Source: Planctomycetota bacterium
GTDB lineage: Bacteria > Planctomycetota > Planctomycetia > Gemmatales > Gemmataceae
DNA length: 38,385 nt
Assembly (NCBI GenBank): GCA_026692965.1
Contig: JAPLNF010000125.1
Coordinates: forward strand, 1 to 38,385
Direction of reading: 5' to 3'
The translations under genes were made by a program, and so were the position numbers. Positions 1 to 17,805 of this stretch are shown here, piece by piece (the first letter of the stretch is position 1; each line of letters opens with the position of its first letter). The notes under the pieces were generated by a model. The model did no database searches. It saw only the letters and a list, made by a program, of their open reading frames with translations, and was not told the DNA's origin.

Positions 1-1697
1 CGGGTTTCATTTTGAATCAAGCCCCCGATGACAAAAGTCTGTCCAGTTTCCATTTCTACCGTTGCATTAACTTGCTTATCATCAAACCCAGTTACGAATC
101 CAAAGGAGGTTTGAATCCCAAACGCAGAGTTTGGTGTTCGAACTCTAGGATTAACCGTAAGTTGGATTTTACCATTGCCTAAAACGATAGGCAGGAAACT
201 AAGGGTGGTACCAATGGTTTGAAAAGCTGCACCAGGGCCGTTGACACCTGAAGCACCGCTTAGAACAGCTTGTTCACCACCCACTTGGAAGAAGGCTTGC
301 TTGCCACTGGAGGTGGTAAGTTTGGGTTCTGCCAAAAGTTTAGAAGCACTTTCATTGCGCAAGGCCTGAAGGAATCCGAGGAATCCACTATTGGAGTTTA
401 AAACACCGAACGGAATGTTAGGGCTTGTTGCGCTTGCAATAAAGCCATTAGCAGCCAAAATGGAGCCTTGAGCAGTCCCGCCTGAAGCAATTCTTCCAAT
501 TTGTGTTGGTTGGGCTGCGAGTCCATTTAAGGTGCTGCCGATAAAAGAACTATTTTGGGAGCTAAGAAAGTTGAACCCTAGTTGTCTGAATTCTGTACGG
601 GAAACTTGCGCTACGACAACATCTAATTGAACTTGTTGCACGCCTGCAACCCGAAGTGCATTGATAACTTTTGCGGAAGTTCTGGGTGTTGCTTGCGCAG
701 GTTGTGTAGTCGCAGCAGCATTGGGATCTGTGGGCATATTGCCCGCGGGGGGTGTAGTGGGATTGGTTTGTCCAGGATTATTTGTTGGCGTTGAACTACT
801 TTGCGATAGGGCATCAAATAAAGTAGGGTCAACAATATTTCCAGCAATGGAAAGAATCATGCCGATATCTTCTGCACGGGAAACATAACCAGAAAGTATA
901 ACCGCATCTTTGGTGACAGGAATGACTTGGATATTGGAATTGGGTACAGCATTGCTTATAACCTTTTTGAGGTAATCGAGATCAAAGGTGGTTTTTGGCG
1001 GTGCACCTGTTTTCAAACCCTGATTTTCAGCTTCGCTATTAAACCTAAGTTTTAATCCGTTTACTACTTTAGAGGAAACAGAAACAATCTTTTTTCCTGC
1101 TGCATCATTAAGATCATAGGTAGGACCTTCTTTTTCTTTATCCTGATAATTTGGATCAACCACTTTACTGGCAAGATGAAGAATTGTACGAAGGTCATCT
1201 GTTGAATTGACTACACCGTTTACAAAAACCGAGTCACTTGTTATTAGGCTAACTTCGATTGTTGTGTTGGACACTGCTTGTGCAAGCATTTTTTTCAAAT
1301 ACGCAATATCAATTGTGGTTTCTTTCAAAAACTTAATATTATTTACTGGTGTTTGTTGGCGAAGTACATAAATGCTAAGTTCTTCTCTTTCTTCATCCAT
1401 TGAAATCAATTCTAAGGTTGCGACGCCTTCAGCCAAACCCTTTAGATAAACAGATTTAGGATCATTCAGTACATCTTTTACTTCTAAAATTTTGTTGTTA
1501 AAAGTGCGGGCGTTCTTGATGAGCTTTTTGCTCTTCATCTGAATCTTGATGGTGAAATCAATGGGAATTGCGTAATCAGGGCCCTTTACCAAAGGCGGTG
1601 CATCCTGGGCCAATAGCGATGCTATACTGCAAACCATGATGATCATGGCTATGCAGGCTTGCAAGCTTTTAGCTAGGTAGTAATTTTTGTATGGCAT
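1..1697 (-). CDS. cpaC: Tad/Flp pilus outer-membrane secretin (CpaC/RcpA family), C-terminus outside window
   Basis: This gene is missing from the ORF track because it has no stop inside the window. Reading the minus strand from an ATG at 1697 gives about 565 open codons. The first ~30 residues form a signal peptide (hydrophobic AMIIMVCSIASLLA, then QDAPP). Two BON-like repeats follow, each containing a DxAYLKK or DLDYLKK start and ending near VVDP or IVDP. A Pro/Thr/Gln-rich linker leads to the secretin domain, recognisable from VQLDVVVAQVSRTEFRQLG and LLAEPKLTTSSGKQAFF. Secretins form the outer-membrane channel through which Flp pili pass. An AGAGG lies just upstream of the ATG. It is 70 bp downstream of cpaB on the same strand, so probably co-transcribed. 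The family call is firm; the cpaC symbol is by context. Confidence 0.93.
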   Translation of the reverse strand, partial: MPYKNYYLAKSLQACIAMIIMVCSIASLLAQDAPPLVKGPDYAIPIDFTIKIQMKSKKLIKNARTFNNKILEVKDVLNDPKSVYLKGLAEGVATLELISMDEEREELSIYVLRQQTPVNNIKFLKETTIDIAYLKKMLAQAVSNTTIEVSLITSDSVFVNGVVNSTDDLRTILHLASKVVDPNYQDKEKEGPTYDLNDAAGKKIVSVSSKVVNGLKLRFNSEAENQGLKTGAPPKTTFDLDYLKKVISNAVPNSNIQVIPVTKDAVILSGYVSRAEDIGMILSIAGNIVDPTLFDALSQSSSTPTNNPGQTNPTTPPAGNMPTDPNAAATTQPAQATPRTSAKVINALRVAGVQQVQLDVVVAQVSRTEFRQLGFNFLSSQNSSFIGSTLNGLAAQPTQIGRIASGGTAQGSILAANGFIASATSPNIPFGVLNSNSGFLGFLQALRNESASKLLAEPKLTTSSGKQAFFQVGGEQAVLSGASGVNGPGAAFQTIGTTLSFLPIVLGNGKIQLTVNPRVRTPNSAFGIQTSFGFVTGFDDKQVNATVEMETGQTFVIGGLIQNET

Positions 1698-1767
1698 CCT
1701 TGCAACCTCTTCTAACAAACTGGCGATTCCCTTCGCCAAAATTATAAAACTCCGCAACCATCCCTGG

Positions 1768-2721
1768 CTATTGCTTTACTTTATCAGGCGCATCACTCGG
1801 AACCTCATCTGGCTGTTCGACAGCAGTTGAATTCCGACTGTTTTTAATCACCGTACGCCATTTGCCTTTTTCGTATTCTTCAAACTCTACAGCATCATTG
1901 CTGGCAATATTTTCCTTAGAATCTTTAGTATTAAAGATGACAAGGGTGTGTTTATTATCGTTCCCACCAAAAATACCGGGTTTGATTTTCTTTTTCTCAG
2001 GATCCTTCTTTAACACATCATTAGGTTTCAATTCTTCATTAAGCTTGGTGGTTTTGGTGTTAGCTTTATCGTTATCATCCTTGGCCCTTGCGGAAAGCTT
2101 GATTTCGCCAACAGATTTCCACATTGCTAAGATCTGTGCTTCTTCAGGGCTAACCTCAAGAGTCACAGTATTTTCAACAATGGAATGGCGTACATCGCCG
2201 GGCTTTTCATTAATGGTCGATTTATCGCCTACAGCCATCACTCGAATGTTTTCCAAAACGGTTTGAGTTTCGATGTTGTTATTGGCCAGTCGTTTGGTGC
2301 CAATCAGATCTACCGTGGAGCCCGGGAGAATAAACCCGCCAGCAAGGGATTCAGCATTAACAGTGAGGCCAAACAGCCTTTTACCCTTATTGAGTTGGTC
2401 GGTAAGGTAGTGTTGATTGGGGTCAAGAAGATCATCTTTGGTAATAAAGGATTGCTCGGCAAGACCCTTATTAAGGGTTTTATCTTTTATTAGATCAAAC
2501 GAAATCAAAATATTTGATGGAAGATTAAGTTCCGGAACAGCAACAACCTCAAAGTACTTCTGAGGATCAGAAATCTTCTCGCGGAAAGGTACCTTGCCTT
2601 TAGTTCTAAGAACTTCAACCATTTTTGGACCTTGATTTCCTTTATTGTAAGTCATCGCCAAGTAGGCTGCAGCTAAGCCGCAAAAAACCGCCATCCCAAG
2701 TGCCAACATTCTAGGATTCAT
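1768..2721 (-). CDS. cpaB: Flp pilus assembly protein CpaB/RcpC
   Basis: The 317-aa product has one N-terminal membrane anchor (about residues 5-24, LALGMAVFCGLAAAYLAM) and a periplasmic SAF-like domain in the middle (YFEVVAVPELNLPSN, then GKRLFGLTVNAESLAGGFI and PGSTVDLIGT). This order is typical of CpaB/RcpC, which works with the secretin in Tad pilus assembly. The C-terminal third is charged and low in complexity (a DDNDKANTKTTKLNEE-type stretch), longer than a minimal family member. The start is ATG with AGAGG nine bases upstream. The 273-bp gap upstream (2722-2994) is AT-rich; a perfect minus-strand TATAAT sits at 2840-2845 but I see no convincing -35, so the promoter is unproven. The gene precedes the secretin as in other Tad loci. 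Confidence 0.92.
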   Translation of the reverse strand: MNPRMLALGMAVFCGLAAAYLAMTYNKGNQGPKMVEVLRTKGKVPFREKISDPQKYFEVVAVPELNLPSNILISFDLIKDKTLNKGLAEQSFITKDDLLDPNQHYLTDQLNKGKRLFGLTVNAESLAGGFILPGSTVDLIGTKRLANNNIETQTVLENIRVMAVGDKSTINEKPGDVRHSIVENTVTLEVSPEEAQILAMWKSVGEIKLSARAKDDNDKANTKTTKLNEELKPNDVLKKDPEKKKIKPGIFGGNDNKHTLVIFNTKDSKENIASNDAVEFEEYEKGKWRTVIKNSRNSTAVEQPDEVPSDAPDKVKQ

Positions 2722-2994: not shown

Positions 2995-3612
2995 TTATTG
3001 AATTGGATAAACAGGTAAAGGAAAGTGTAAGTAGAGGTGCAGGTAAGCCAGATAGCCCAGAAACCCAAGGCAAAGTGGGATACCATAAGGTAGCAAATGC
3101 ATCCTTGGTTTGCGAGCAGCAGCTTTTTGTTCAGTTTCGTCCACGCTTTTGGTTGCAAGGTCGGAAAGGATTTCACGGGTATTTAATATATTGGTTGATA
3201 TTTGCCTACGGAAGAGAATCATGAAGAAAGCAATGATGCCCCCGATGATTGCGCCCCAGCAAAAAGCAATCAATACGATGTACTGGGCCTGACCAAAAGA
3301 GTAGTAAGCACCAACCCAGGCGCCAAACCCCATTTGCATTTTGACATCTCCCGCCCCCATGCCCCCAATAGCATAAACAGGGAAGATAAGAGCGAAACCT
3401 AAAACGGTGGCAGTGAGGCTACCACCGATTCCACCAATTCCGGAATCAGGAAGGATTTGAAAAGTATTGAACAATCCTAAAATCCAACCCGAGATGATTA
3501 GCGGGAAGGTGAGTGCGTTAGGAACTTTAAGTTTCCAGCCATCGATGATTGCAGCAACGATCATTGCAAGGCTAACCAACGCGATAGGCCAGATATTCAA
3601 TGTAAAATCCAT
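2995..3612 (-). CDS. cpaA: Prepilin peptidase, A24 family (TadV/CpaA type)
   Basis: This is a polytopic membrane aspartic peptidase that removes leader peptides from Flp prepilins. Both catalytic aspartates of A24 enzymes are visible: one in AAIIDGWKLKVPN near the N-terminus and one in the GxGD motif GMGAGDVKM. There are about five to six hydrophobic segments and no methylase domain, as expected for the short TadV/CpaA form. The ORF track begins at a TTG at 3624. I prefer the ATG at 3612 (205 aa), because GGGG lies six bases before it and the upstream codons GGGGTGCGTG look like a Shine-Dalgarno region. It lies directly downstream of three pilin genes, which are its probable substrates. Confidence 0.92.
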   Translation of the reverse strand: MDFTLNIWPIALVSLAMIVAAIIDGWKLKVPNALTFPLIISGWILGLFNTFQILPDSGIGGIGGSLTATVLGFALIFPVYAIGGMGAGDVKMQMGFGAWVGAYYSFGQAQYIVLIAFCWGAIIGGIIAFFMILFRRQISTNILNTREILSDLATKSVDETEQKAAARKPRMHLLPYGIPLCLGFLGYLAYLHLYLHFPLPVYPIQ

Positions 3613-3650
3613 CACGCACCCCAATTAAAAGACATTAACTCTCAATGAAC

Positions 3651-3824
3651 TTACTGAATAGCCGAGGTTGTGGCTGAAAAAACACCACTAGTTTTTTGCC
3701 CAAGCACGGTGATAGCGCTTATTGCAACCACAATGATAAGTGCCACCATAACGGCATATTCTACCGCAGTGGGGCCGTCTTCGCTTTTGAAAAACTTGAC
3801 CAACTTTTCGTGTAAAGTGCGCAT
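3651..3824 (-). CDS. flp: Flp pilin 1
   Basis: This small prepilin (57 aa) is the subunit type of Tad pili. The leader MRTLHEKLVKFFKSEDG ends in Gly and is followed by PTAVEYAVMVALIIVV, so the conserved G|xxxxEY processing site and hydrophobic assembly helix are intact. Predicted mature length is 40 residues. The ORF track start (3884) adds an unlikely 20-residue extension; the ATG at 3824 has AAAGGAG six bases upstream and is clearly the start. It is the closest pilin to the peptidase gene. A strong hairpin terminator (3917-3949) separates it from pilin 2, so it probably has its own promoter in 3825-3916. Confidence 0.93.
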   Translation of the reverse strand: MRTLHEKLVKFFKSEDGPTAVEYAVMVALIIVVAISAITVLGQKTSGVFSATTSAIQ

Positions 3825-3916
3825 GAGAGACTCCTTTGGGAAGTGGAAAGGGAGAGAGAACAAAAAGGGAAACATAAATAACACTTAATGATCTTTAAGT
3901 ATTATTACTCGGCTTT

Positions 3917-3949
3917 AAAAAGCGCCCCTAAATGTAAGGGGCGCTTTTT
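3917..3949. terminator. Bidirectional intrinsic terminator between pilin 2 and pilin 1
   Basis: A perfect 13-bp inverted repeat (AAAAAGCGCCCCT / AGGGGCGCTTTTT) encloses a 7-base loop and has A and T tracts on both sides, so it should work in either direction. It would stop minus-strand transcripts from flp2 before flp1, allowing the two pilins to be expressed at different levels. Confidence 0.85.
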
Positions 3950-3997
3950 ATTACGCCCTAGTTGTAAAAAACATTCCCGCAAAGGGGGACATTTAAA

Positions 3998-4189
3998 CTA
4001 ACTTGCTGTTGTCGCACTAGGAATTGCAGTTGCGGTATTAGTGAAGGTAGTGCTTACCTTGGAACCAAGGGCGGTGATCGCAGCGATCGATACCACGATA
4101 ATCAGAGCCACCATAACAGCATATTCAACTGCAGTGGGGCCATCTTCGCTCTTCAAAAACTTAACCAACTTTTCGCGTAGAGTATTCAT
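3998..4189 (-). CDS. flp: Flp pilin 2
   Basis: This 63-aa Flp prepilin is closely related to pilin 1. The leader MNTLREKLVKFLKSEDG keeps the terminal Gly, followed by PTAVEYAVMVALIIVV, so cleavage by the neighbouring prepilin peptidase is expected to give a 46-residue pilin ending in a Ser/Thr/Ala-rich tail. The ATG at 4189 has AAGGAG six bases upstream, a much better start than the ORF-track start at 4225. It is followed by a terminator, which fits a highly expressed single-gene unit. The 265-bp upstream gap (4190-4454) is AT-rich and presumably holds its promoter; no convincing boxes were found. Confidence 0.92.
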   Translation of the reverse strand: MNTLREKLVKFLKSEDGPTAVEYAVMVALIIVVSIAAITALGSKVSTTFTNTATAIPSATTAS

Positions 4190-4454: not shown

Positions 4455-4646
4455 TTAACTTGCTGTAGTGGTGGTGCTGATTTTTGTTGAAGTATTGGTG
4501 AAAGTAGTACTTACTTTGCTCCCTAGGGCGGTGATTGCAGCGAGCGATACCACAATGATAAGGGCAACCATAACGGCATATTCTACTGCAGTGGGGACAT
4601 TCTCATCCTGCAGGAACGAATAGAGTTTATTTTGAATAAAGTTCAT
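4455..4646 (-). CDS. Flp-like pilin 3 with altered cleavage site
   Basis: This 63-aa paralog is nearly identical to pilin 2 from PTAVEYAVMVALIIVV onward, but its leader reads MNFIQNKLYSFLQDENV. The residue before the scissile bond is Val rather than Gly, a GGC to GTC type change. Its ribosome site is also weak (TGAG where pilins 1 and 2 have GGAG). A24 peptidases normally need Gly at -1, so this protein may be uncleaved, a regulatory or minor subunit, or a decaying duplicate. I chose the ATG at 4646 because it aligns with the starts of the other two pilins; the ORF track starts ten codons earlier. Confidence 0.85.
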   Translation of the reverse strand: MNFIQNKLYSFLQDENVPTAVEYAVMVALIIVVSLAAITALGSKVSTTFTNTSTKISTTTTAS

Positions 4647-4775
4647 TTTAGACTCATTTTTAAGGTGTTCAGGCAAATCTAGATGTAGTCAACGAATATT
4701 GCCCTTAAATTAATCTTATTTGAAAAACATCGATCAATCAACTAATAAAAATTTATTAATACAATTTTAACTGAT

Positions 4776-6411: not shown

Positions 6412-8442
6412 ATGAAACCAGAAGTAGACCTAGCGATTGGTGAACTAGTAAAGCATGGCGTACTCCACAAGGATGAAATTGATTCTGCGTTTGAGAAATA
6501 CCCCGAAGCTGTAAGCATAGATGATCGCGATGCCTTGGGTGATTTTTTAGAACAAATAGGGCTGATCACTGCATTTCAAGCCGGTGAACTTCGTAATAAG
6601 CGAATTGCTGATTTGGCCATGGCCAATTATCTCATTCTTGATCGCCTTGGTGAAGGTGGCATGGGAACGGTTTTTCGTGCCAGGCACAAACGCATGCGCA
6701 GGATAGTTGCGCTTAAGGTGCTTAACCCTGAAATTCAAGAAAATCCAGATCATTTGCAACGCTTTCAACGCGAAATAGAAACCCTTGCGCGCCTTAATCA
6801 CCCCGGAGTAATACAAGCTTATGATGCAGATTTCGGGCCCTCCGGATTCTTTTTAGTTCTCGAACTTGTTGAAGGCAGCGATCTTGATGGGATTGTTCGC
6901 AAGAATGGCCCTCTTCCCGTAAGCGAAGCCATCGATGCCATGATTCAATCTGCTAAAGCTTTGCAGTATGTACACGATCAGGGGATGGTGCATCGCGATA
7001 TCAAACCGCAAAACTTGATGAGAAACAGGCAGGGTGATATTAAAGTTGCAGACCTTGGCCTTGTTCGCCTAACCGAAGCAGAATCTGCGGATGATCACAA
7101 TAAGCAGGGCCTTACCCAGCAATTCACCATCGCAGGCACATTGGAATTCATGGCTCCTGAACAAGCCGAAAACACCAGTGGTGTTGATAATCGCGCAGAC
7201 ATTTACAGCCTTGGTTGTTCCTTATATTACATCCTAGCTGGTAAAAATGTTTACACGGGTAAATCTGTGATGGATAAGTTGATGGCTCATATGACCCATC
7301 CCATTCCAAGCATCAGAGAATTAAGGACCGATGTTTCTGAAAAACTAGATAATGTCTTTAAGAAGATGGTTGCAAAGACAGTTGATCAGCGATACCAGAC
7401 AATGAATGAAGTAGTTGTCGATCTTGAAAATATCAAGATGATGGAGAAAGTTTCTAATGTCGCCCCAACTAATATCATAATTGCTCCGGAGACTGCCCAA
7501 GCAGATACAGGTACTGCCTTTTTTGAAAGCCCGATGGTAAAGCCTGCTCCCGTTGAACCAGAAGGCACGTTGATTTTCAACCCAGGCCAAAAGACTTCCA
7601 TTCAGAATAATTTGAATAACGCTGCAACTGCATTTATCGAACGCCCCAGCCAATCCACTGTAGAACCATCCCAAATCGATAGCGCCAAGGTTCTGCTGGT
7701 TGAACCTTCTAAACTTCAAGGCATGATGATTGGCAATCAGCTTAAATCGCTTGGTATTGCTGATGTAAAATTTGCGCTTTCGGGAGCGGATGCATTCGAA
7801 CAGTTTAGCAAAGGGGGATTTAAGGCAATTGTTTGCTCGCAAAATCTACCCGATTGCAGTGGTATTGAACTTGCTCAAAAGATAAAAGCAACCCCTTCGG
7901 GCAAAGGCATTTCTTTTATCTTGATTACCTCGAACATTGATAATGAAATGGAATCCCTGGCTGCAAAAGTCGATTTCAAAATTCTTAGAAAGCCCTTCAC
8001 TCCAGAACAACTTAAATCAACTTTACCTGTAAATGCGCCTAGCGTTTCCCAACCTACGGTTGTACAGCCCACCACCAAAACCGTACTTTTGGTTGATGAT
8101 AGTTCCTTTGCTAGGAAAAGAATGCTGGGGATTTTAAAATCCTTGGGATTCGATGATGTTGTAGAAGCTGTGGATGGTGCGAAAGGTTTGGCCATGGCTC
8201 AGGGCCGGCCTTTTCTTTTTATCGTCTCTGATTTTCACATGCCTATCTTAGATGGTAAGGGCTTTGTCGAGAGCCTTAGCCAAGATCCTAAACTGAAAAA
8301 TATCCCCGTTTTGCTGATCACCAGCGAACCGGATTCTTTCCTGCTCGATCCTATTCGAAACTTGAAGTCATGCAGAATTCTTTCGAAATCCGCAGAGGCC
8401 TCTACTCTTAAGATGGAAATCTCTAAGTTTATTGCTCTTTAA
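6412..8442 (+). CDS. Hanks-type Ser/Thr kinase with two C-terminal receiver domains
   Basis: The 676-aa protein starts with a ~60-residue helical domain (ELVKHGVLHKDEID, GLITAFQAGEL) of a kind seen in planctomycete kinases. The kinase domain spans about 72-345: glycine loop GEGGMGTVF, Lys102 in VALKVL, HRDIKPQN at 194-201, DLG instead of DFG at 214-216, and APE at 248-250. A linker (345-424) contains TAFF, TLIF and TAFI motifs. Receiver 1 (about 425-540) has lost the acidic pocket and phospho-Asp (VCSQNLPD) but keeps KPF. Receiver 2 (about 557-676) is intact: VDDSS at 561-565, Asp607 in VSDFHMP, Lys659. No transmembrane segment is visible. It precedes cheA on the same strand and supplies the only non-CheB receivers in the cluster, so it may be the CheA-controlled output. 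Confidence 0.93.
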   Translation: MKPEVDLAIGELVKHGVLHKDEIDSAFEKYPEAVSIDDRDALGDFLEQIGLITAFQAGELRNKRIADLAMANYLILDRLGEGGMGTVFRARHKRMRRIVALKVLNPEIQENPDHLQRFQREIETLARLNHPGVIQAYDADFGPSGFFLVLELVEGSDLDGIVRKNGPLPVSEAIDAMIQSAKALQYVHDQGMVHRDIKPQNLMRNRQGDIKVADLGLVRLTEAESADDHNKQGLTQQFTIAGTLEFMAPEQAENTSGVDNRADIYSLGCSLYYILAGKNVYTGKSVMDKLMAHMTHPIPSIRELRTDVSEKLDNVFKKMVAKTVDQRYQTMNEVVVDLENIKMMEKVSNVAPTNIIIAPETAQADTGTAFFESPMVKPAPVEPEGTLIFNPGQKTSIQNNLNNAATAFIERPSQSTVEPSQIDSAKVLLVEPSKLQGMMIGNQLKSLGIADVKFALSGADAFEQFSKGGFKAIVCSQNLPDCSGIELAQKIKATPSGKGISFILITSNIDNEMESLAAKVDFKILRKPFTPEQLKSTLPVNAPSVSQPTVVQPTTKTVLLVDDSSFARKRMLGILKSLGFDDVVEAVDGAKGLAMAQGRPFLFIVSDFHMPILDGKGFVESLSQDPKLKNIPVLLITSEPDSFLLDPIRNLKSCRILSKSAEASTLKMEISKFIAL

Positions 8443-8461
8443 GTTTAAAAGAGTGCACTTA

Positions 8462-8522
8462 TTTAGTACAGTTTTAACGGTTATGCGAATAAAAGCCCTT
8501 CCTTGGGCTATTTTGTACTAAA
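8462..8522. terminator. Nested inverted repeat, probable terminator between kinase gene and cheA
   Basis: An inner hairpin (AGCCC, six-base loop, GGGCT followed by ATTTT) is enclosed by a second perfect 9-bp inverted repeat (TTTAGTACA / TGTACTAAA). The inner part looks like an intrinsic terminator. The outer arms could extend the stem or form a separate operator. It suggests cheA has its own promoter in 8523-8611, where I see only AT-rich sequence. Confidence 0.55.
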
Positions 8523-8611
8523 AATCACGCTTTCCCTTAAAGTTTACGCACACTTCCCATGCTATCCTAGCTGTTAACATTAACTTTTATTTCTTACTAA
8601 TTAAGTTACTT

Positions 8612-11356
8612 ATGAGCGAAATGGACGAGGCATTAGTAGAATTTCTCATCGAGTGTCAGGAAAACCTGTCTCGTATGGATCTTGAACTTCTCGAACTCGA
8701 GAAGTCTACCGATCCTGAATTGGTAAAAAGTATCTTCCGAGTGATGCACACCATCAAGGGTAGTGCAGGGTTTCTTGGATTATCGAAACTCGAAAAGCTG
8801 ACCCATGCAGCAGAAAATCTGCTGAGCAAAATACGCGATGGTTCGCTTCAACCCACTACTGCAATTACTTCTGCGTTGTTAGCTGCAATCGATGGAACCC
8901 GAGCCATTCTTTCCAGCCTTGAATCGAATCAGAACGAAGGTAATTCAGATTCAGAAGCCATTATTAAAGTGCTTAACGATTGCACCAAGGCGCCAGCAGC
9001 CTCTGTTGGTAAAGCGCCTGCCATCGTTGAGGAAACCGCCGTCCCGGTTGCAAGCTCTGCAAATGTTGAAATGGACGAAGCCCTGAAAGAATTTCTCATC
9101 GAGTGTCAAGAAAACCTTTCTCGAATGGATCTTGAACTTCTCCAACTTGAGAAGTCTACTCATCCCGAATTGGTAAAAAGTATCTTTCGTGTAATGCACA
9201 CCATTAAGGGTAGTGCAGGGTTTCTTGGATTAGCGAAACTCGAAAAGCTGACCCATGCGGCAGAAAATCTGCTGAGCAAAATACGCGATGGTTCGCTTCA
9301 GCCTACCGCACTTATTACTTCCGCACTCTTAGCTGCAATCGATGGCACCCGAGCCATCCTTTCTAGCCTTGAATCGAATCAGAACGAAGGCACTTCAGAT
9401 TCAGAAGCCATTATTAAAGCGCTTAACGATTGCACCAAGGCGCCAGCAGTATCTGTTGGCAATGCACCTGCTGCCAAAACGTCTGCCCCAGAGATCAAAC
9501 CGAATCCTGCACCAGTTATTGCGCCAACTATGGTGTTTCCAAAGGATGCTGGAAATTCGTTTTCAGATGCATTAAAGCCAGCAACTCCAGTAACATCAGT
9601 GATGGAAAAGGCCCCAGATACGGTTTCTGCAATGAAGGAAAAAATTGAAGAACCACAGCGAGAGATGGCTTCTGCGCTTTCCGATTCCTCGGTTCGTATC
9701 CCGGTAGATGTTCTTGATAAATTAATGTCGCTTGCAAGTGAGTTGGTTTTATCGCGCAATCAATTATTGCAATGTTCTACAAGGTTGAACGATTCTTTGT
9801 TGCAGGTGGCATCAAGGCAATTCAATCTGGTGACTTCCGAATTGCAGGAAGCACTGATGAAGACCAGGATGCAACCCATATCGAATGTATGGAACAAATT
9901 CCCGCGAATGGTGCGTGAAGTTGCATTCAAACTGGGCAAACAAATCAATCTGCAGATGCAGGGCGCAGAAACTGAACTTGATAAAACCTTAATCGAAGCT
10001 ATTAAAGATCCCTTGACACATCTCGTGCGTAATTCAATCGATCATGGGATTGAATCTCCCGATGGCAGGGCCCGGGCCAATAAAAAACCTGAAGGTACTC
10101 TTCTGCTTCGGGCGTATCACGAAAGCGGCCGTGTTAATGTTGTGATTTCTGATGATGGTAAAGGAATCGACCTTAACCGAGTCAAAGCAAAGGCGCTTGA
10201 AAAGCAGTTGCTTTCTTCAGATCAGCTTTCGCAAATGGGTGATAACTCGGTATTACAGTTGATATTCCTTCCCGGCTTTTCGACTGCCGAAAAAATCACC
10301 AGCGTTTCAGGCAGAGGCGTTGGCATGGATGTTGTAAAAAACAACATCGAAAAAATTGGTGGCATGATTGATATTCAAAGCGAAGTGAATAAAGGCACAA
10401 CGATCCATCTGCGTATTCCGCTTACCCTTGCAATTATCAAAGCTCTTAGCATTACCGCTGCAGGCCAAAGTTTTACCATCCCACAAACCCATATCACCGA
10501 ATTACTCCGGATTAAGGATGATAGTAAAATTGGTGGCATTGAGTTTGTGCATGAGACTCCCGTATTCAGATTTCGTGGCAAACTAATTCCCTTGATCAAT
10601 CTTGCTGAACTTTTACAAATCAAAGGAAAGTCTGAAACTCAATCGCAACCGAATCATCTGGTGATTTTGCAGGCTGAAGATCGGCAGTTTGGTCTCTTGG
10701 TGGATTCCGTCAAGGATACCAATGAAATCGTTGTTAAGCCGCTTCCTTCGAGGTTGAAAGGTGTGGGTTGTTTTGCTGGGGTGACCATCATGGGCGATGG
10801 GTTGGTACAACTTATCCTTGATGTTTCCGGGGTTGCTAGGTTGGGCAGAGTTCTGCCAAAAATCCGCGATCTTGGCATCAAAGATCTTTCAGCACAAGAT
10901 GAAATTAAAGCTGATAATCAAAGTGCAGGTGAGGGCCTTCTTTTGGTTAGTGCAGGTGGTGAAAGCCAGATTGCAATTCCTTTGGAGCAGGTGGTCAGGT
11001 TGGAAGAATTCAGACCTCATCAATTGGAAAAGACAGGCGAAATGCATTTGGTTCAATATCGCGAAGGCATCATGCCAATCTACAATCTAGGAAATATTTT
11101 GGGTATCAAAGGTAGCGTAGAGACTCGGGATAAAACCAAAAAAATACAGGTTGTCGTTCATAAGTATGCTGGCAAGTATGTGGGCCTAGTAGTTGAGAAA
11201 ATTCTCGATACTGTTTATGAATCGATAAAAATCAATGGTGATAGTACGGGCCAGGGAATAAAGAAAACTGGTGTTGTTAGCGGGAAAATCACCGAATTTG
11301 TTGACCTTGGCGTCCTTTTAGCCCTGACAGTTAAAAAACTGGAGGTCGTTTCTTGA
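8612..11356 (+). CDS. cheA: Chemotaxis histidine kinase CheA with duplicated HPt and CheW-like domains
   Basis: CheA autophosphorylates on a His and passes phosphate to receiver domains under receptor control. This 914-aa version has two near-identical HPt domains (about 3-120 and 153-270), with phospho-His46 and His196 in MHTIKGSAGFLG. There is then a Pro/Ala-rich linker (about 285-355) with no recognisable P2 docking domain, the dimerisation domain (about 360-425) and the HATPase. ATP-site motifs are HLVRNSIDHGIE (N box), SDDGKGID (G1) and GRGVGMDVV (G2). Two CheW-like domains follow (about 612-745 and 770-905), where most CheA proteins have one. No receiver is fused. The ATG has little Shine-Dalgarno. 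The TGA stop overlaps the cheW start by three bases. Confidence 0.95.
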   Translation: MSEMDEALVEFLIECQENLSRMDLELLELEKSTDPELVKSIFRVMHTIKGSAGFLGLSKLEKLTHAAENLLSKIRDGSLQPTTAITSALLAAIDGTRAILSSLESNQNEGNSDSEAIIKVLNDCTKAPAASVGKAPAIVEETAVPVASSANVEMDEALKEFLIECQENLSRMDLELLQLEKSTHPELVKSIFRVMHTIKGSAGFLGLAKLEKLTHAAENLLSKIRDGSLQPTALITSALLAAIDGTRAILSSLESNQNEGTSDSEAIIKALNDCTKAPAVSVGNAPAAKTSAPEIKPNPAPVIAPTMVFPKDAGNSFSDALKPATPVTSVMEKAPDTVSAMKEKIEEPQREMASALSDSSVRIPVDVLDKLMSLASELVLSRNQLLQCSTRLNDSLLQVASRQFNLVTSELQEALMKTRMQPISNVWNKFPRMVREVAFKLGKQINLQMQGAETELDKTLIEAIKDPLTHLVRNSIDHGIESPDGRARANKKPEGTLLLRAYHESGRVNVVISDDGKGIDLNRVKAKALEKQLLSSDQLSQMGDNSVLQLIFLPGFSTAEKITSVSGRGVGMDVVKNNIEKIGGMIDIQSEVNKGTTIHLRIPLTLAIIKALSITAAGQSFTIPQTHITELLRIKDDSKIGGIEFVHETPVFRFRGKLIPLINLAELLQIKGKSETQSQPNHLVILQAEDRQFGLLVDSVKDTNEIVVKPLPSRLKGVGCFAGVTIMGDGLVQLILDVSGVARLGRVLPKIRDLGIKDLSAQDEIKADNQSAGEGLLLVSAGGESQIAIPLEQVVRLEEFRPHQLEKTGEMHLVQYREGIMPIYNLGNILGIKGSVETRDKTKKIQVVVHKYAGKYVGLVVEKILDTVYESIKINGDSTGQGIKKTGVVSGKITEFVDLGVLLALTVKKLEVVS
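8618..9010 (+). repeat. Tandem intragenic repeat, copy 1 (HPt domain)
   Basis: Codons 3-133 of cheA. They are repeated at 9068-9460 with a 450-bp period and high DNA identity by eye (roughly nine bases in ten), including many silent matches, pointing to a fairly recent in-frame duplication of the HPt module and its linker. Confidence 0.9.
9068..9460 (+). repeat. Tandem intragenic repeat, copy 2 (HPt domain)
   Basis: Codons 153-283 of cheA, the second copy of the duplicated HPt module. The phospho-accepting His and the MHTIKGSAGFLG context are conserved in both copies, so both could be phosphorylated. Confidence 0.9.
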
Positions 11357-11817
11357 GCAAGGAACTTTCTTACGCCACCTTTACCATTGATGGTAAACTA
11401 TTTGGAATTCTCATTGAGGATGTGCAGGAAATACTGCGCCCTCTTGAAGTAACGGAAGTGCCTTTGGCTTCCTTGGCGTTTAACGGGCTTATTAATCTTC
11501 GAGGCAATATTGTCCTTGCGGTTAGGATGCGTCAACAACTTAGTTTGCCTCCCATGGAGGCCAAGTTTTGCATGAATATAATTCTTAAGCTTCGAGATGA
11601 ATTTTACAGTTTGCAAGTTGATTCGGTGGCAGATGTGGTTGTGGTGCAAAAGGATGATTTTGAAATCCCGCCTGAAACTCTCCCAGTAGAAATTAGGCGA
11701 TTCATCACTGGCACTTACAAGGTTGATAATAAGTTACTACATATTTTGGACATTGAGCAAATCCTTGAGGATAAATCTTTGTCTCTTAAAGAAAAACAAA
11801 GTGAGATTTTAGTATGA
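11353..11817 (+). CDS. cheW: Chemotaxis coupling protein CheW
   Basis: The 154-aa single-domain CheW links receptors to CheA in the signalling array. Family features are [22 protein letters not shown] at the start, then [16 protein letters not shown] and the VDSVADVV segment. It starts with TTG at 11353, overlapping the cheA stop (TTGA). The start is supported by a perfect GGAGG seven bases upstream, which lies inside the end of cheA and implies translational coupling. It ends in an ATGA overlap with the first receptor gene, so cheA, cheW and the receptor are one operon. Confidence 0.95.
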
Positions 11818-13676
11818 GTATTCTGCAAAGGCTTCTTCTTATTTCTGCAAGTTTCCTTCTGCCGATTTCTGTGTTACTCTATTTCACAGTCGATGGCATT
11901 CAGGATCGTATTGATTTTGCAGTCCTTGAAAAACACGGGAATAGCTTTCAGAGACCGCTGGAGAAAATTCTTCGCTCCCTGCTGGTTCATAAGAGTGCAG
12001 CCCTTTCAGTTCTTGGGGGTGACCCTACTGCCTTAACAACTGCAACCAAGGAAGAGGTAAGTTTGGATTCTGCGATTCGAAATCTTGAAGTGCTTGAAAA
12101 ATCTTTTGGTACCATTTTGCAATTCACTCAGGATGGCCTTGCTAAGAGAAAACGAGAAGAAGCTAAAATTGATAATTTCTCGAGGAAGTGGGATCAGTGT
12201 AGGAAATTTTGGCAGACTATGACCCCCGATGCTTGCAAAAGCGAGCATGATAATCTGATTATGATTGTTCGTATGATGATTACTCATTTGGGCGATACCT
12301 CCAATCTTATTCTTGATCCGGATCTGGATTCCTTTTACTTGATGGATGTAAGCGTTGTTGCGTTGCCTAGTGCCCAAGAACGAATTTCAACTTTGATTAC
12401 AATCTATAATTCGCTGATTAAAAAGGGCCCAAATGATCAGGAAGACAAGTTAGCTCTTGCGATCCAAAACGCTCTCTTTCAACAAAGTGATTTGGATAGG
12501 ATTTTCTCTAGCATCGATACTGCCCTTAATGAAGACAATAATTTTTATGGTAAATCGGAGTCTTTGCAAAAGAATATCAGTGCTCCTTTGGAGAAATTTA
12601 AGAAGTCTACGGGGAATTTTACCAAGCTGCTTTTATCTCTTAAGGCTGAACAACTTACTAAAGCTGACCCAAAAATTCTAGAAGCTGGTAATGAGGCTCT
12701 GGAAGATTCTTTTAGCCTTTGGGATACCTGCTCTGCTGAACTTCAAGTGTTGTTGGAATTGAGAATTCTCAAGTTTCAGAATGACAGGCTTTCTTCTTTA
12801 ATGCTTTCAGCATTAGCATTAGTTATTTCTTTCTTCCTTGTTTGGTACATAGGACGGGGATTAAACAATTCGTTTATTCACATATCAGGCAATTCTAAAA
12901 AATTGATCGTGTCTTCTAATAACCAGAAATTGGTTAGCAAGAGTATGGTAGCCAACGCAACCGAAACTTCTGCCCAAGCTAATGCCATTGCAAGTGCCGC
13001 AGAAGAAGTCAGCGTGAATATTCAATCAGTTGCAAGCGCAGCAGAGGAAATAGGCGCAACAATCCGAGAAATAGCGAGACAATCGCAGCAAGCAGCCCAG
13101 GTTGCAAATGAAGCAGTTAGCATTGCAGAAACTGGAAATAAGGCAGTACTTAGGTTGGGCGAGAATAGTAATATCATTGGCAATGTGATAAAGGTAATCA
13201 CCTCGATTGCAGAGCAGACGAACCTGCTGGCATTAAACGCGAGCATCGAAGCCGCCCGAGCTGGCGAGTTTGGCAAAGGTTTTGCAGTGGTAGCTAGCGA
13301 GGTAAAAGAGCTTGCCAAGGAAACCGCCAAGGCGACTGAAGATATTCGAACGAAAATAGAGGGGATTCAATCAGATACCCGGGAAGCGGTAAGTTCCAAC
13401 GAGAAGACCCGAAATATCATCAGTAAAATTCATGAGATTCAAAGTACGATTGCGGGAGCAGTGGAAGAGCAAGCTGCTACTACGCGAGAGATCACCAGAA
13501 ATGCAGCGGATGCAGCCACGGGTAGTTCGGAAATCGCCAAGAATATCTCGGGGCTAGCAGAAGCTGCCCGAAGCACTTCCAAGGGCGCGACTGAATTGGA
13601 AACAGCAGCATTGGGATTGGATACCATGGCTTCTGAGTTGGAAAAGATTGTAAAAACTTTCCAGATAAAATCGTAG
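11814..13676 (+). CDS. Methyl-accepting chemotaxis protein 1 (no HAMP domain)
   Basis: This 620-aa receptor has TM1 (about 7-25), a ~300-residue helical sensor domain with [18 protein letters not shown]2 (about 327-346) and a cytoplasmic MCP domain whose tip reads [19 protein letters not shown]. The periplasmic part looks like a four-helix-bundle sensor; the ligand is unknown. Compared with the adjacent paralog, 45 residues covering HAMP are missing: YIGRG is followed directly by LNNSFIHIS, where the paralog has HAMP and then MNNAIVLIS. The rest of the cytoplasmic domain is intact. Its ATG overlaps the cheW stop (ATGA). Confidence 0.94.
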
Positions 13677-13744
13677 GATTTCAACAGAAAACAAACGTAG
13701 GGTCCGACCTAGAAAATAACGAAAGATAAAGCGAGGGATTATTC

Positions 13745-15745
13745 ATGAGTATTCTGCAAAGGCTTCTTCTAATTTCTGTCAGTTTTTTACTTCCAATTTC
13801 TGTACTTTTGTATTTTGCAATCGATGGAATACAAGATCGGATTGATTTTGCAGAACTCGAAAAGCAAGGAAACATCTACCAGAGGCCACTGGAAAAAATC
13901 TTGAAAGCGCTTTTGATTCACAAAAATGCAGCATCTGCAGTCCTTGCAGGGGATAATGCTTCTAGCATCATTATTGCAAAAGAACAATCTGCTTTGGATT
14001 CTGCTCTTCGCACTTTGGAAAGTTTGGATAAAGAACTCGGACCGATTTTGCAATTCACCCAAGATGGCCTAGCCAAGAGAAAAAGAGATGAAGCAAAGGC
14101 TGATAACTTATCTAAAAAATGGGACCAATTACGAAAGTCTTGGCAGACATTATCTGTGGATGTTTGCAAGGCTGAACATGATAACCTAATTAAAATTATC
14201 CGCACCATGATCACCCATTTGGGCGATACCTCGAATCTTATTCTTGATCCTGATTTGGATTCCTTTTACTTGGTGGATGTAAGCCTTGTTGCGTTGCCTC
14301 AAGCTCAGGAACGAATCTCAACATTGATTTCACTTTATAACGCAGTCGTAAAAAACGGTTCTAAGAAAGATGAAAATAGTATTGAAATGAGTGCTCAGTT
14401 GACTCTTTTTTCGCAGAGTGATATCGATAGGATTTTTGCAAGTATTGAAACCTCAATGAATGAAGATAATAATTTTTATGGGAAGTCAGAATCCCTGCAC
14501 AAAAATCTACCTGCCCCTACCGAAAAGCTTAAGAAAAACACGGACAACTTTGTGAAATTGCTACTTAACCTCAAACCCGAGCAACTCAACAAAGCCGACC
14601 CAAAAATTGTCGAGGCGGGTAATGAATGCCTTGAAGATTCCTTCAGCCTTTGGGATACCTGCTCTGCTGAACTTGAAGAATTGCTTAATAAAAGAATAAC
14701 GAAGTTTAAGTACGATAGGTTTTACTCGATATTGCTTTCCGCACTTGCACTTTCAGTATCATTTGGTCTTGTTTGGTATATTGGCAAGGGGATTACCGTG
14801 CCTATACGCACCAGTAGTGCAAGGCTTGATAAACTTGCCAAGGGCGATCTTGCATCAGTGGTTGATGTCCTCGGGCAGGGGGAATTGGGAGCAATGTCGC
14901 AATCCCTGTCCAAAGCTGTTTCAGGTATGAATAATGCCATCGTTTTAATTTCAGTCAATGCCCAAAAATTGATCCATTCTTCCACCAACCAAAGGCAGGT
15001 TAGTCGGAGTATGGTTTCCAATGCTACCGAAACTTCTGCCCAAGCTAATGCAATTGCTACTGCCGCCGAGGAAGTTAGTGTAAATATTCAATCAGTTGCG
15101 GGGGCAGCCGAAGAAATGGGCGCAACCATCAGGGAAATCGCCAAGCAGGCGCAGCAAGCAGCCCAGGTTGCAAACGAAGCGGTTACCATCGCAGAAAGTG
15201 GGAATAAAGCGGTGCTTAGGTTGGGCGAAAATAGTGCTATCATTGGTAATGTAATCAAGGTGATTACCTCGATCGCAGAGCAGACGAATCTGCTGGCATT
15301 AAATGCGAGTATCGAAGCTGCCCGAGCAGGAGAGTTTGGCAAAGGTTTTGCAGTGGTAGCTAGCGAGGTAAAAGAACTTGCCAAGGAAACAGCCAAGGCG
15401 ACAGAAGATATTCGAACGAAAATAGAGGGGATTCAATCGGATACCCGGGAAGCGGTAAGCGCCAACGAGAAGACCCGAAATATCATCAGCAAAATTCATG
15501 AGATTCAAAATACGATTGCTGGAGCGGTGGAAGAGCAGGCGGCTACTACCCGAGAGATAACCAGAAATGTTGCGGATGCTGCAACCGGCAGCACCGAAAT
15601 TGCCAAGAATATTACAGGGCTTGCTGAAGCTGCCCAGAGCACTTCCAAGGGTGCAACGGAGTTAGAGAAAGCTGCAATGGGCTTAGATTCAATGGCCACT
15701 GAGTTGGAGCAATTGGTAAAAACATTTCAAACCAAGGCGTCGTAA
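13745..15745 (+). CDS. Methyl-accepting chemotaxis protein 2 (with HAMP)
   Basis: The 666-aa receptor is paralogous to the preceding gene from the first codon onward (both start [11 protein letters not shown]). It has TM1, a periplasmic helical sensor with [18 protein letters not shown]2 (about 330-347), a HAMP domain beginning at ITVPIR and including [15 protein letters not shown], and the MCP signalling domain with [22 protein letters not shown] identity with MCP1 is much higher in the cytoplasmic half than in the sensor half, so the two may sense different ligands but feed the same array. GAGGG lies nine bases before the ATG. The 68-bp gap from MCP1 holds no clear terminator. Confidence 0.95.
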
Positions 15746-15786
15746 TCGTTGATGAATAGAGATTGATAAAGCTTTGATGAATTTTT

Positions 15787-15815
15787 TTGGTAATGGCTGT
15801 TATTATACCTATAAT
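15787..15815 (+). promoter_or_regulatory. Sigma70-type promoter upstream of cheB
   Basis: TTGGTA (15787-15792), a 17-base spacer and a perfect TATAAT (15810-15815) lie 59 bp before the cheB ATG. The -35 matches four of six consensus bases. It would drive cheB-cheR independently of the upstream operon. Confidence 0.55.
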
Positions 15816-15874
15816 GTTAGTTGCGATCATTTATATGTTTGGCAATTAACATTTTTTTATTAGTGGAATAATTT

Positions 15875-16927
15875 ATGCCTTTAATTCGTGTGCTTATTGT
15901 TGATGATTCTTCAGTAGTACGCAGAACATTAAAAACAGTACTATTATCTGATCCAGATTTTTCCGTAGTGGGTGCAGGGTCTGATGGTAAAGAAGGAATA
16001 GAACTGGCTTTAAAATTAAAACCAGACTTGGTGATTCTTGATGTTGATATGCCGAGGATGAATGGGCTTGAGGTTCTCGCTGAACTTAAAAAGAAAAATC
16101 CCGAATTAGCAATCATCATGTTTAGTTCCTTGGTGCAAAAAGGAAGCGTTATTACCCTTGATGCAATTTCCCTAGGCGCGGATGATTATTTTTGCAAACC
16201 TTCCACAGGGTCAGCAGAAGAAACCATTGAATTGTTGAAAAAAGATTTGTTGCCTCGCCTGAAAGCTATTCTTAAAAAGAATCAGTCTAGCAGTGGGGTA
16301 ATTAACTTGCCCCAAGCTGCAAAAAAAGTATTCAAAGAAACTATAAAATCCATCACCCCTAAAATCTTAGCAATTGGGGTGTCTGCGGGCGGCCCAGAAG
16401 CCCTTAAAGTATTGCTGACGGCACTGCCACCTTTACCAGTTCCTGCCGTAATAACCCAACATATGCCAGCAGGTTTTACCAAAAGCTTGGCAGATCATTT
16501 AAACACCCAAACCAAGCATGCTGTTACCGAAGCGGTAGATGGGGATACCCTTGTTGTTGGGAAGTTTTTGCTTGCCCCAGGGGATTATCACATGGTGATT
16601 GAGCCGTGCTTAGCTGGAAATAAAGTGCGGTTAAATCAGGACGCTCCAGAAAATTATTGCAGGCCAGCAGTTGATCCGATGTTACGTTCGGTTGCTAAAA
16701 TATATGGGGCCTCTGTTCTTACGGTTATTTTAACAGGCATGGGGCAGGATGGCCTAGAGGGGTGCAAGGCAATTCATAAAGCGGGTGGGAAAATTCTGGT
16801 TCAAGATCAGGCCACCAGCGTTGTTTGGGGAATGCCAGGCAGTGTTTATAAGGAAGGATTGGCAGAAGAATCCCTTTCCATTCATGATCTTTCGTCAGCA
16901 ATCATGGGTCGACTGAATCAAAAATAA
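15875..16927 (+). CDS. cheB: Chemotaxis protein-glutamate methylesterase CheB
   Basis: CheB removes methyl groups from receptors and is activated by CheA. The 350-aa protein has a receiver domain (residues 1-125; Asp10/Asp11, phospho-Asp56 in VILDVDMP, Lys108) and a methylesterase domain (about 160-345). The catalytic triad is visible: Ser170 in GVSAGGPEAL, His196 in ITQHMPAG and Asp292 in GMGQDGLEG. Length and architecture are standard. It sits 129 bp after MCP2 behind its own likely promoter and 32 bp before cheR. With receiver 2 of the Hanks kinase, it is one of two intact phosphate acceptors for CheA in this window. Confidence 0.96.
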   Translation: MPLIRVLIVDDSSVVRRTLKTVLLSDPDFSVVGAGSDGKEGIELALKLKPDLVILDVDMPRMNGLEVLAELKKKNPELAIIMFSSLVQKGSVITLDAISLGADDYFCKPSTGSAEETIELLKKDLLPRLKAILKKNQSSSGVINLPQAAKKVFKETIKSITPKILAIGVSAGGPEALKVLLTALPPLPVPAVITQHMPAGFTKSLADHLNTQTKHAVTEAVDGDTLVVGKFLLAPGDYHMVIEPCLAGNKVRLNQDAPENYCRPAVDPMLRSVAKIYGASVLTVILTGMGQDGLEGCKAIHKAGGKILVQDQATSVVWGMPGSVYKEGLAEESLSIHDLSSAIMGRLNQK

Positions 16928-16959
16928 ACTATTTTAAATTTGAACATCTGGATCATTAA

Positions 16960-17805
16960 ATGCTATTTGACAGCGCAGGTATAACCCAAGAAAACTATCG
17001 TATTTTTGTTGATTTTCTCAAAATCAAACTTGGCCATGATTTGGGCGAGGGTAAGGAATATTTGATTGAAAACAGGCTAAATCCTGTTTGTGAAGCCCAG
17101 AAAATTGCGAATGTAAATGAGCTTGCAAGGGAAATAAAAATCAACCCTTACTCCGCCTTGGGGAATCTGGTTGTAGAGAACATGACCATCCAGGAAACGA
17201 GTTTTTTCAGAGGCCCCAGAGTCTTTGACAATTTGAAGAAATACATCATTCCAAAATTGATCAACGAAAATGTTTATTCCCACACCATTAAAATTTGGTG
17301 CGCATGTTGTTCCACAGGTCAGGAACCTTATTCAATCATGATGCTGCTGATGCAGAATTTTCCACAACTGGAAAATTGGAACATCAACCTTCTTGCGACT
17401 GATGTTTCTGAAAACGCACTTACCAAGGCGCGATCTGGAATTTACTCCAGATTTGAAGTCATTCGCGGGCTTTCCACTGACCTTAAAGAAAAATATTTAC
17501 TCGAAACCCCGGACAGTCAGTATCAAATTCGTTACGACTTGCGCCAAAAAATCAAGTTTCAGCAGGTCAATCTGCTGGAAGGATTCTATGCACTTGGTGG
17601 CCCATTCGATATTATTCTTCTTCGAAATGCTCTTATTTATTTCGCCCCTGAAGTCATCACTGGGATTTTTCAAAAACTTCGTGGCGCAATCAAGGACAAT
17701 GGTTTTCTTATTCTAGGTGAATCTGAATCTATCATGGGAAAAACCACCATGTTCAACCTTCCAATTGAAGGAACGGATTACTTTACACCCACTCCACTTC
17801 CCTAA
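16960..17805 (+). CDS. cheR: Chemotaxis protein methyltransferase CheR
   Basis: CheR methylates receptor glutamates with SAM. The 281-aa protein has the N-terminal helical domain (1-85) ending in NMTIQETSFFR and the SAM-dependent methyltransferase domain, with the SAM-binding loop IWCACCSTGQEPYSI (112-126), LLATDVSENALTKA and LLRNALIYF. The family usually reads CRNVLIYF, so Cys is replaced by Leu before Arg. No TPR extension or VHR-type tether is present. The ATG is 32 bp after cheB; the next gene starts 17 bp downstream and may be co-transcribed. Confidence 0.95.
   Translation: MLFDSAGITQENYRIFVDFLKIKLGHDLGEGKEYLIENRLNPVCEAQKIANVNELAREIKINPYSALGNLVVENMTIQETSFFRGPRVFDNLKKYIIPKLINENVYSHTIKIWCACCSTGQEPYSIMMLLMQNFPQLENWNINLLATDVSENALTKARSGIYSRFEVIRGLSTDLKEKYLLETPDSQYQIRYDLRQKIKFQQVNLLEGFYALGGPFDIILLRNALIYFAPEVITGIFQKLRGAIKDNGFLILGESESIMGKTTMFNLPIEGTDYFTPTPLP

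Follow-up and report, generated by a model that had tools for sequence, protein, structure and literature searches.

The last residue of a prepilin leader is invariably Gly or Ala (reviewed in PMC10191384), and pilins that are left unprocessed cannot be assembled (PMC13170266). Two described proteins bear on what a pilin might do when it cannot be recognized by its peptidase: unprocessed PilA of Pseudomonas is a ligand that lowers pilin expression via PilS (PMC13170266), and Flp2 of Bdellovibrio, which has neither the Gly nor the leader, is needed for predation (PMC5430801). In the open literature, we found no test of a Gly-to-Val change at position -1 of an Flp pilin.

The locus studied here lies in a stretch of 38,385 nucleotides, hereafter the window, which is one contig of a 360-contig metagenome-assembled genome (MAG) that is 73.86% complete and whose nearest named relatives are planctomycete MAGs, e.g. 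UBA969. On the minus strand of the window we found, in order, genes for pilin 3, pilin 2, pilin 1, an A24 prepilin peptidase, RcpC/CpaB, and a secretin, and this run of genes is a Tad/Flp locus (Table). Pilin 3 is the first pilin of the array to be transcribed, and it is linked to all three of the Tad genes used as markers (A24 peptidase, RcpC/CpaB, and secretin). No further close pilin copies were found in the window genome beyond these three. Beside the Tad locus, on the opposite strand (6412-17805), is a chemosensory cluster encoding a Ser/Thr kinase with two receiver domains, a CheA-like kinase with two Hpt domains, CheW, an MCP, CheB, and CheR.

Table. Features of the window Tad/Flp locus, by position in the window.
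Feature	Position	Strand	Basis or remark
Secretin, RcpA/CpaC-like, cut by window end	3..1757	-	
RcpC/CpaB Flp pilus assembly protein	1768..2721	-	
Linked A24 prepilin peptidase, probable start ATG at 3612	2995..3624	-	Motif GMGAGDVKM intact
Pilin 1, Flp_Fap prepilin, Gly at -1, AAAGGAG ribosome site	3651..3824	-	Pfam and sequence
Perfect 14-bp inverted repeat with T/A runs, terminator-like hairpin, between pilin 2 and pilin 1	3916..3950	.	Conserved in L033
Pilin 2, Flp_Fap prepilin, Gly at -1, AAGGAG ribosome site	3998..4189	-	Pfam and sequence
Pilin 3, 63-aa Flp_Fap prepilin, Val at -1	4455..4646	-	Pfam PF04964 and sequence reading
Codon 17 of pilin 3, GTC, Val (-1 position)	4596..4598	-	GGC in window pilins 1 and 2; three relatives have GGC in their pilin-3 orthologue
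Short frame ATG AGT CTA AAA TGA, stop overlapping the pilin-3 start (ATGA)	4643..4657	-	Read from sequence
TGAG in place of the GGAG ribosome-binding core, pilin 3	4653..4656	-	Also before the Gly-bearing L033 and L035 genes and the frameshifted L034 gene

All three window pilins exceed the Pfam cut-off for Flp_Fap, with pilin 3 scoring 34.9 bits against a curated PF04964 threshold of 32.2. Pilin 3 also has the Glu+5 and Tyr+6 of the family, followed by about 20 hydrophobic residues (PTAVEYAVMVALIIVVSLAAITALG). Around the cleavage site (marked here by a slash), pilin 3, read from 4646 to 4455, has the sequence MNFIQNKLYSFLQDENV/PTAVEYAVMVALIIVVSLAAITALGSKVSTTFTNTSTKISTTTTAS, whereas pilins 1 and 2 both read ...SEDG/PTAVEY. 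Our reading of the window therefore confirms what had been noticed from the sequence alone, namely that pilin 3 has Val (GTC) where pilins 1 and 2 have Gly (GGC). With Val at -1, pilin 3 lacks the Gly or Ala that marks a class III (prepilin) signal peptide, and no other Gly or Ala is present in its 17-residue leader. The -2 residue differs as well, being Asn in pilin 3 and Asp in pilins 1 and 2, and this Asn is common to the Gly-bearing orthologues described below. We found no frameshift, stop, or lost start in window pilin 3, so its frame is intact.

To judge how unusual the Val is, we scanned 95 genomes of the family for codons preceding the exact PTAVEY motif, to which all of these rarity scans were confined. 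A GGN codon directly before CCNACNGCNGTNGARTAY was counted 316 times, in 81 of the genomes. When the second base was anything but G, there were 14 matches; two of these are pilins, both with Val. HGN codons gave none. Of the 318 PTAVEY pilins, 2 thus have a residue other than Gly among the codons covered by the scans, and neither Ala nor Ser was found. The Gly at -1 is nearly invariant in the PTAVEY pilins of the family, in line with what the sequence-only reading had stated for A24 prepilin peptidases. A looser pilin pattern, run over the loci that were fetched, likewise returned Gly in every other pilin. The two Val pilins are window pilin 3 and a pilin from genome G074 (locus L099; G074:C209:11829), the latter an independent occurrence in a protein shortened to about 43 aa, which ends some 25 residues past the cleavage site. 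We also considered that Val might be a trait conserved within a clade, and rejected this: in 398 genomes of the class, scanned for codons other than HGN, there were no further non-Gly PTAVEY pilins, and the other pattern matches were unrelated frames. An exact-pattern scan of viral contigs found no second sequence of the window species.

We then compared the pilin arrays of the genus, for which seven genomes were sampled. Five of the seven have the pilin array and the linked peptidase; neither was seen in G004 and G005, which are 86-88% complete. Locus and genome handles were paired by matching coordinates and sequences (L033 with G006, L035 with G001, L036 with G002, and L034 with G003), and the pairing is inferred in this sense. 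In L033, L035, and L036, the third pilin at the equivalent place has Gly at -1 (ENG/P). The third pilin of L034 also has Gly at -1, but 2 nt inserted directly behind it (CCCACTAGCAGTT) disrupt the frame, and a stop follows four codons beyond the cleavage site. The same gene has lost 11 nt between CCTTAT repeats, a deletion that replaces the start codon with an upstream, in-frame ATG. This frameshifted locus occupies positions 4960-5170 of L034. By comparison, the genes for pilin 1 and pilin 2 in the array-bearing genomes, 10 in all from five genomes, are undamaged. A flanking protein of the window is about 84% identical to those of the three nearer relatives, which are 88-91% identical among themselves. 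Because Gly is found in G002 as well, Gly is the parsimonious ancestral state at -1 of pilin 3. On the same comparison, Val is the derived state, having arisen on the branch to the window genome by a single G-to-T transversion (GGC to GTC). Gly in close relatives is the result that the sequence-only reading had itself named as refuting its interpretation, and three relatives have it. In G002 (L128, G002:C29:7130-7273), only a remnant (residues 453-500, with one stop) is left of the membrane-protein gene that flanks the array in the other genomes.

The ribosome site of pilin 3 has a different history. The sequences ahead of the ATG are AAATGAGTCTAAA in pilin 3, AAGGAGTTTACG in pilin 2, and AAGGAGTCTCTC in pilin 1, in agreement with the earlier report of TGAG upstream of pilin 3 and GGAG upstream of its neighbors. 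That report had paired the weak site with the Val change, and this pairing fails: AATGAG lies ahead of the third pilin in three of four relatives (L033, L035, and L034), Gly-bearing ones among them, while L036 has GAAAAAG. Since the relatives' genes share AATGAG, the weak site is inherited and unrelated to Val, having not arisen with it. The ATG that opens the short upstream frame lies within AATGAG, and in L034 it is this ATG that replaces the original start codon. The ATGA overlap between the short frame and the pilin-3 start is repeated in L033 and L035.

Codon comparisons indicate how long pilin 3 may have been without constraint. Over codons 18-54, window pilin 3 differs from that of L033 by 22 synonymous and 6 replacement changes, a count that has to be read alongside possible exchange between paralogues and the recency of the change, and from that of L035 by 18 and 6. 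These counts argue that pilin 3 has not been free of constraint for long. In the leader, there are 4 synonymous and 6 replacement changes relative to L033, and 4 and 5 relative to L035; the pilin-2 leader has no replacements in any pair, against the 6 in the pilin-3 leader between window and L033. Constraint thus seems to have acted on the core of pilin 3 through most of the period after the split, and more weakly on the leader. The sequence-only reading had stressed an intact frame and an unchanged hydrophobic core. The frame is indeed intact and synonymous differences far outnumber replacements; the core, for its part, is not wholly unchanged, with I35L and further changes in the tail.

Some of this constraint may be that of the sister pilins, passed on through exchange of sequence. 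Codons 21-33 of pilin 3 are identical over 38 nt to pilin 1 of L034 (shuffle p about 0.01 for the pair, uncorrected for 13 comparisons). As an origin of the conserved core, gene conversion is suggested by this single 38-nt match with its uncorrected p, and we did not adopt it. The second half of pilin 1 in L034 and L036 is pilin-2-like (VSIAAITTLGTKVSSTFSG), where the window, L033, and L035 have VAISAITVLG, and the tandem pilins have probably exchanged sequence in pilin 1 of L034 and L036. Gene conversion can be ruled out as the source of the Val itself, as all copies of pilin 1 and pilin 2 across the genus carry GGC.

The linked A24 peptidase of the window is 97-98% identical to those of relatives with Gly in pilin 3, and with the enzyme so nearly unchanged, nothing suggests a compensating change for Val. 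A second A24 peptidase frame, of 388 aa, is present in the window genome. In L036 (6015-6100), the linked peptidase gene has lost one base near the first conserved Asp, which is either a real lesion or an assembly fault. Nearly all of the planctomycete Flp pilins that we saw have Pro at +1 (G/PTAVEY), so that the presumed scissile bond is Gly-Pro. Such a bond is an unusual one for a protease.

What remains after these comparisons is a single-lineage substitution in a redundant pilin. We consider it just about probable that this is a recent change at -1 which probably blocks prepilin cleavage, in a spare pilin drifting toward loss, a reading that draws on one genome of the window species. The G-to-T transversion on the window branch turned Gly at -1 to Val in the first gene of a three-pilin array. 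Because the peptidases cut after Gly or Ala, and the leader offers no other, pilin 3 would most likely stay uncut; it would then sit across the inner membrane, leader on the cytoplasmic side, and remain outside the pilus, and the normal pilins 1 and 2 would let pilus assembly continue. With two normal pilins remaining, the simplest interpretation is that a redundant third copy is in an early stage of loss, and the sister species represented by L034 would already have lost its own by frameshift, if that assembly is right. The earlier argument against random decay keeps part of its force, in that the core is constrained; it is weakened by the L034 frameshift, by the truncated Val pilin of G074, and by possible copying from the sister pilins.

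Alternatively, Val at -1 could be tolerated, with the small TadV-type peptidase of the locus still cutting, perhaps slowly, and pilin 3 serving as an ordinary or low-abundance pilin. The intact frame, the constrained core, the retained E+5 and Y+6, and a Pfam score still above the cut-off are all consistent with this, as is the presence of the 388-aa peptidase frame. We nonetheless regard it as unlikely, given the scarcity of non-Gly residues among the family's PTAVEY pilins, with no Ala or Ser, and the general Gly-or-Ala rule (PMC10191384). A constrained core would equally be expected if the uncut prepilin were kept for a function of its own, staying permanently in the inner membrane and there either regulating pilin expression or holding pilus assembly in check; Pseudomonas PilA and Bdellovibrio Flp2 provide the precedents. 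That no relative has the Val form speaks against an old, retained role, as do the frameshifted orthologue in a sister species and the absence of a conserved Val clade from the 398 class genomes, and we find this quite unlikely. The more specific proposal, that a single substitution left a Tad-locus Flp paralogue as a membrane prepilin which cannot be cleaved and is now kept to regulate or limit pilus assembly, seems to us very doubtful. The Val codon might, lastly, be a sequencing or assembly error. The draft state of the MAG leaves room for this, and frame faults are known in MAGs of the genus, including the base missing from the L036 peptidase at an otherwise conserved place. It would, however, be unusual for a consensus error in a contig of 38 kb to take the form of a single-base substitution, and the large neighboring frames are intact. 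With no more than about 82% likeness between the cores of pilins 2 and 3, mis-merging is unlikely as well; we judge an error quite improbable.

If the Val form truly is uncut, it would provide a natural test of the -1 Gly rule in a poorly studied planctomycete Tad system, and would show what an uncleaved pilin does beside normal sister pilins. If pilin 3 is merely decaying, it would be an example of tandem Flp arrays losing copies while paralogues exchange sequence. Under either reading, the effect is confined to one lineage.

Compared with the Flp/Fap pilins of Tad loci (PF04964), pilin 3 is alike in its length, hydrophobic segment, Glu+5, and Tyr+6, and in its place in a tandem array beside an A24 peptidase, RcpC/CpaB, and a secretin; it is unlike them in having Val for the -1 Gly and a weak ribosome site, the latter shared with its orthologues. 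The third pilins of L033, L035, and L036 resemble it in position, leader type (..DEN at -4 to -2), and core, those of L033 and L035 also in the AATGAG upstream, and differ in having Gly at -1. The V/PTAVEY pilin of G074 belongs to the same family, has the same Val, and is likewise encoded upstream of a normal pilin gene, but is cut short not far past the hydrophobic segment. Bdellovibrio Flp2 (Bd0118), a "trimmed" Flp, is similarly a Tad-locus paralogue without the residue that the peptidase recognizes (PMC5430801). Unlike pilin 3, Flp2 is missing the whole leader, is present across Bdellovibrio strains, and has a knockout phenotype (PMC5430801), whereas window pilin 3 still has its leader and carries a non-conserved Val.
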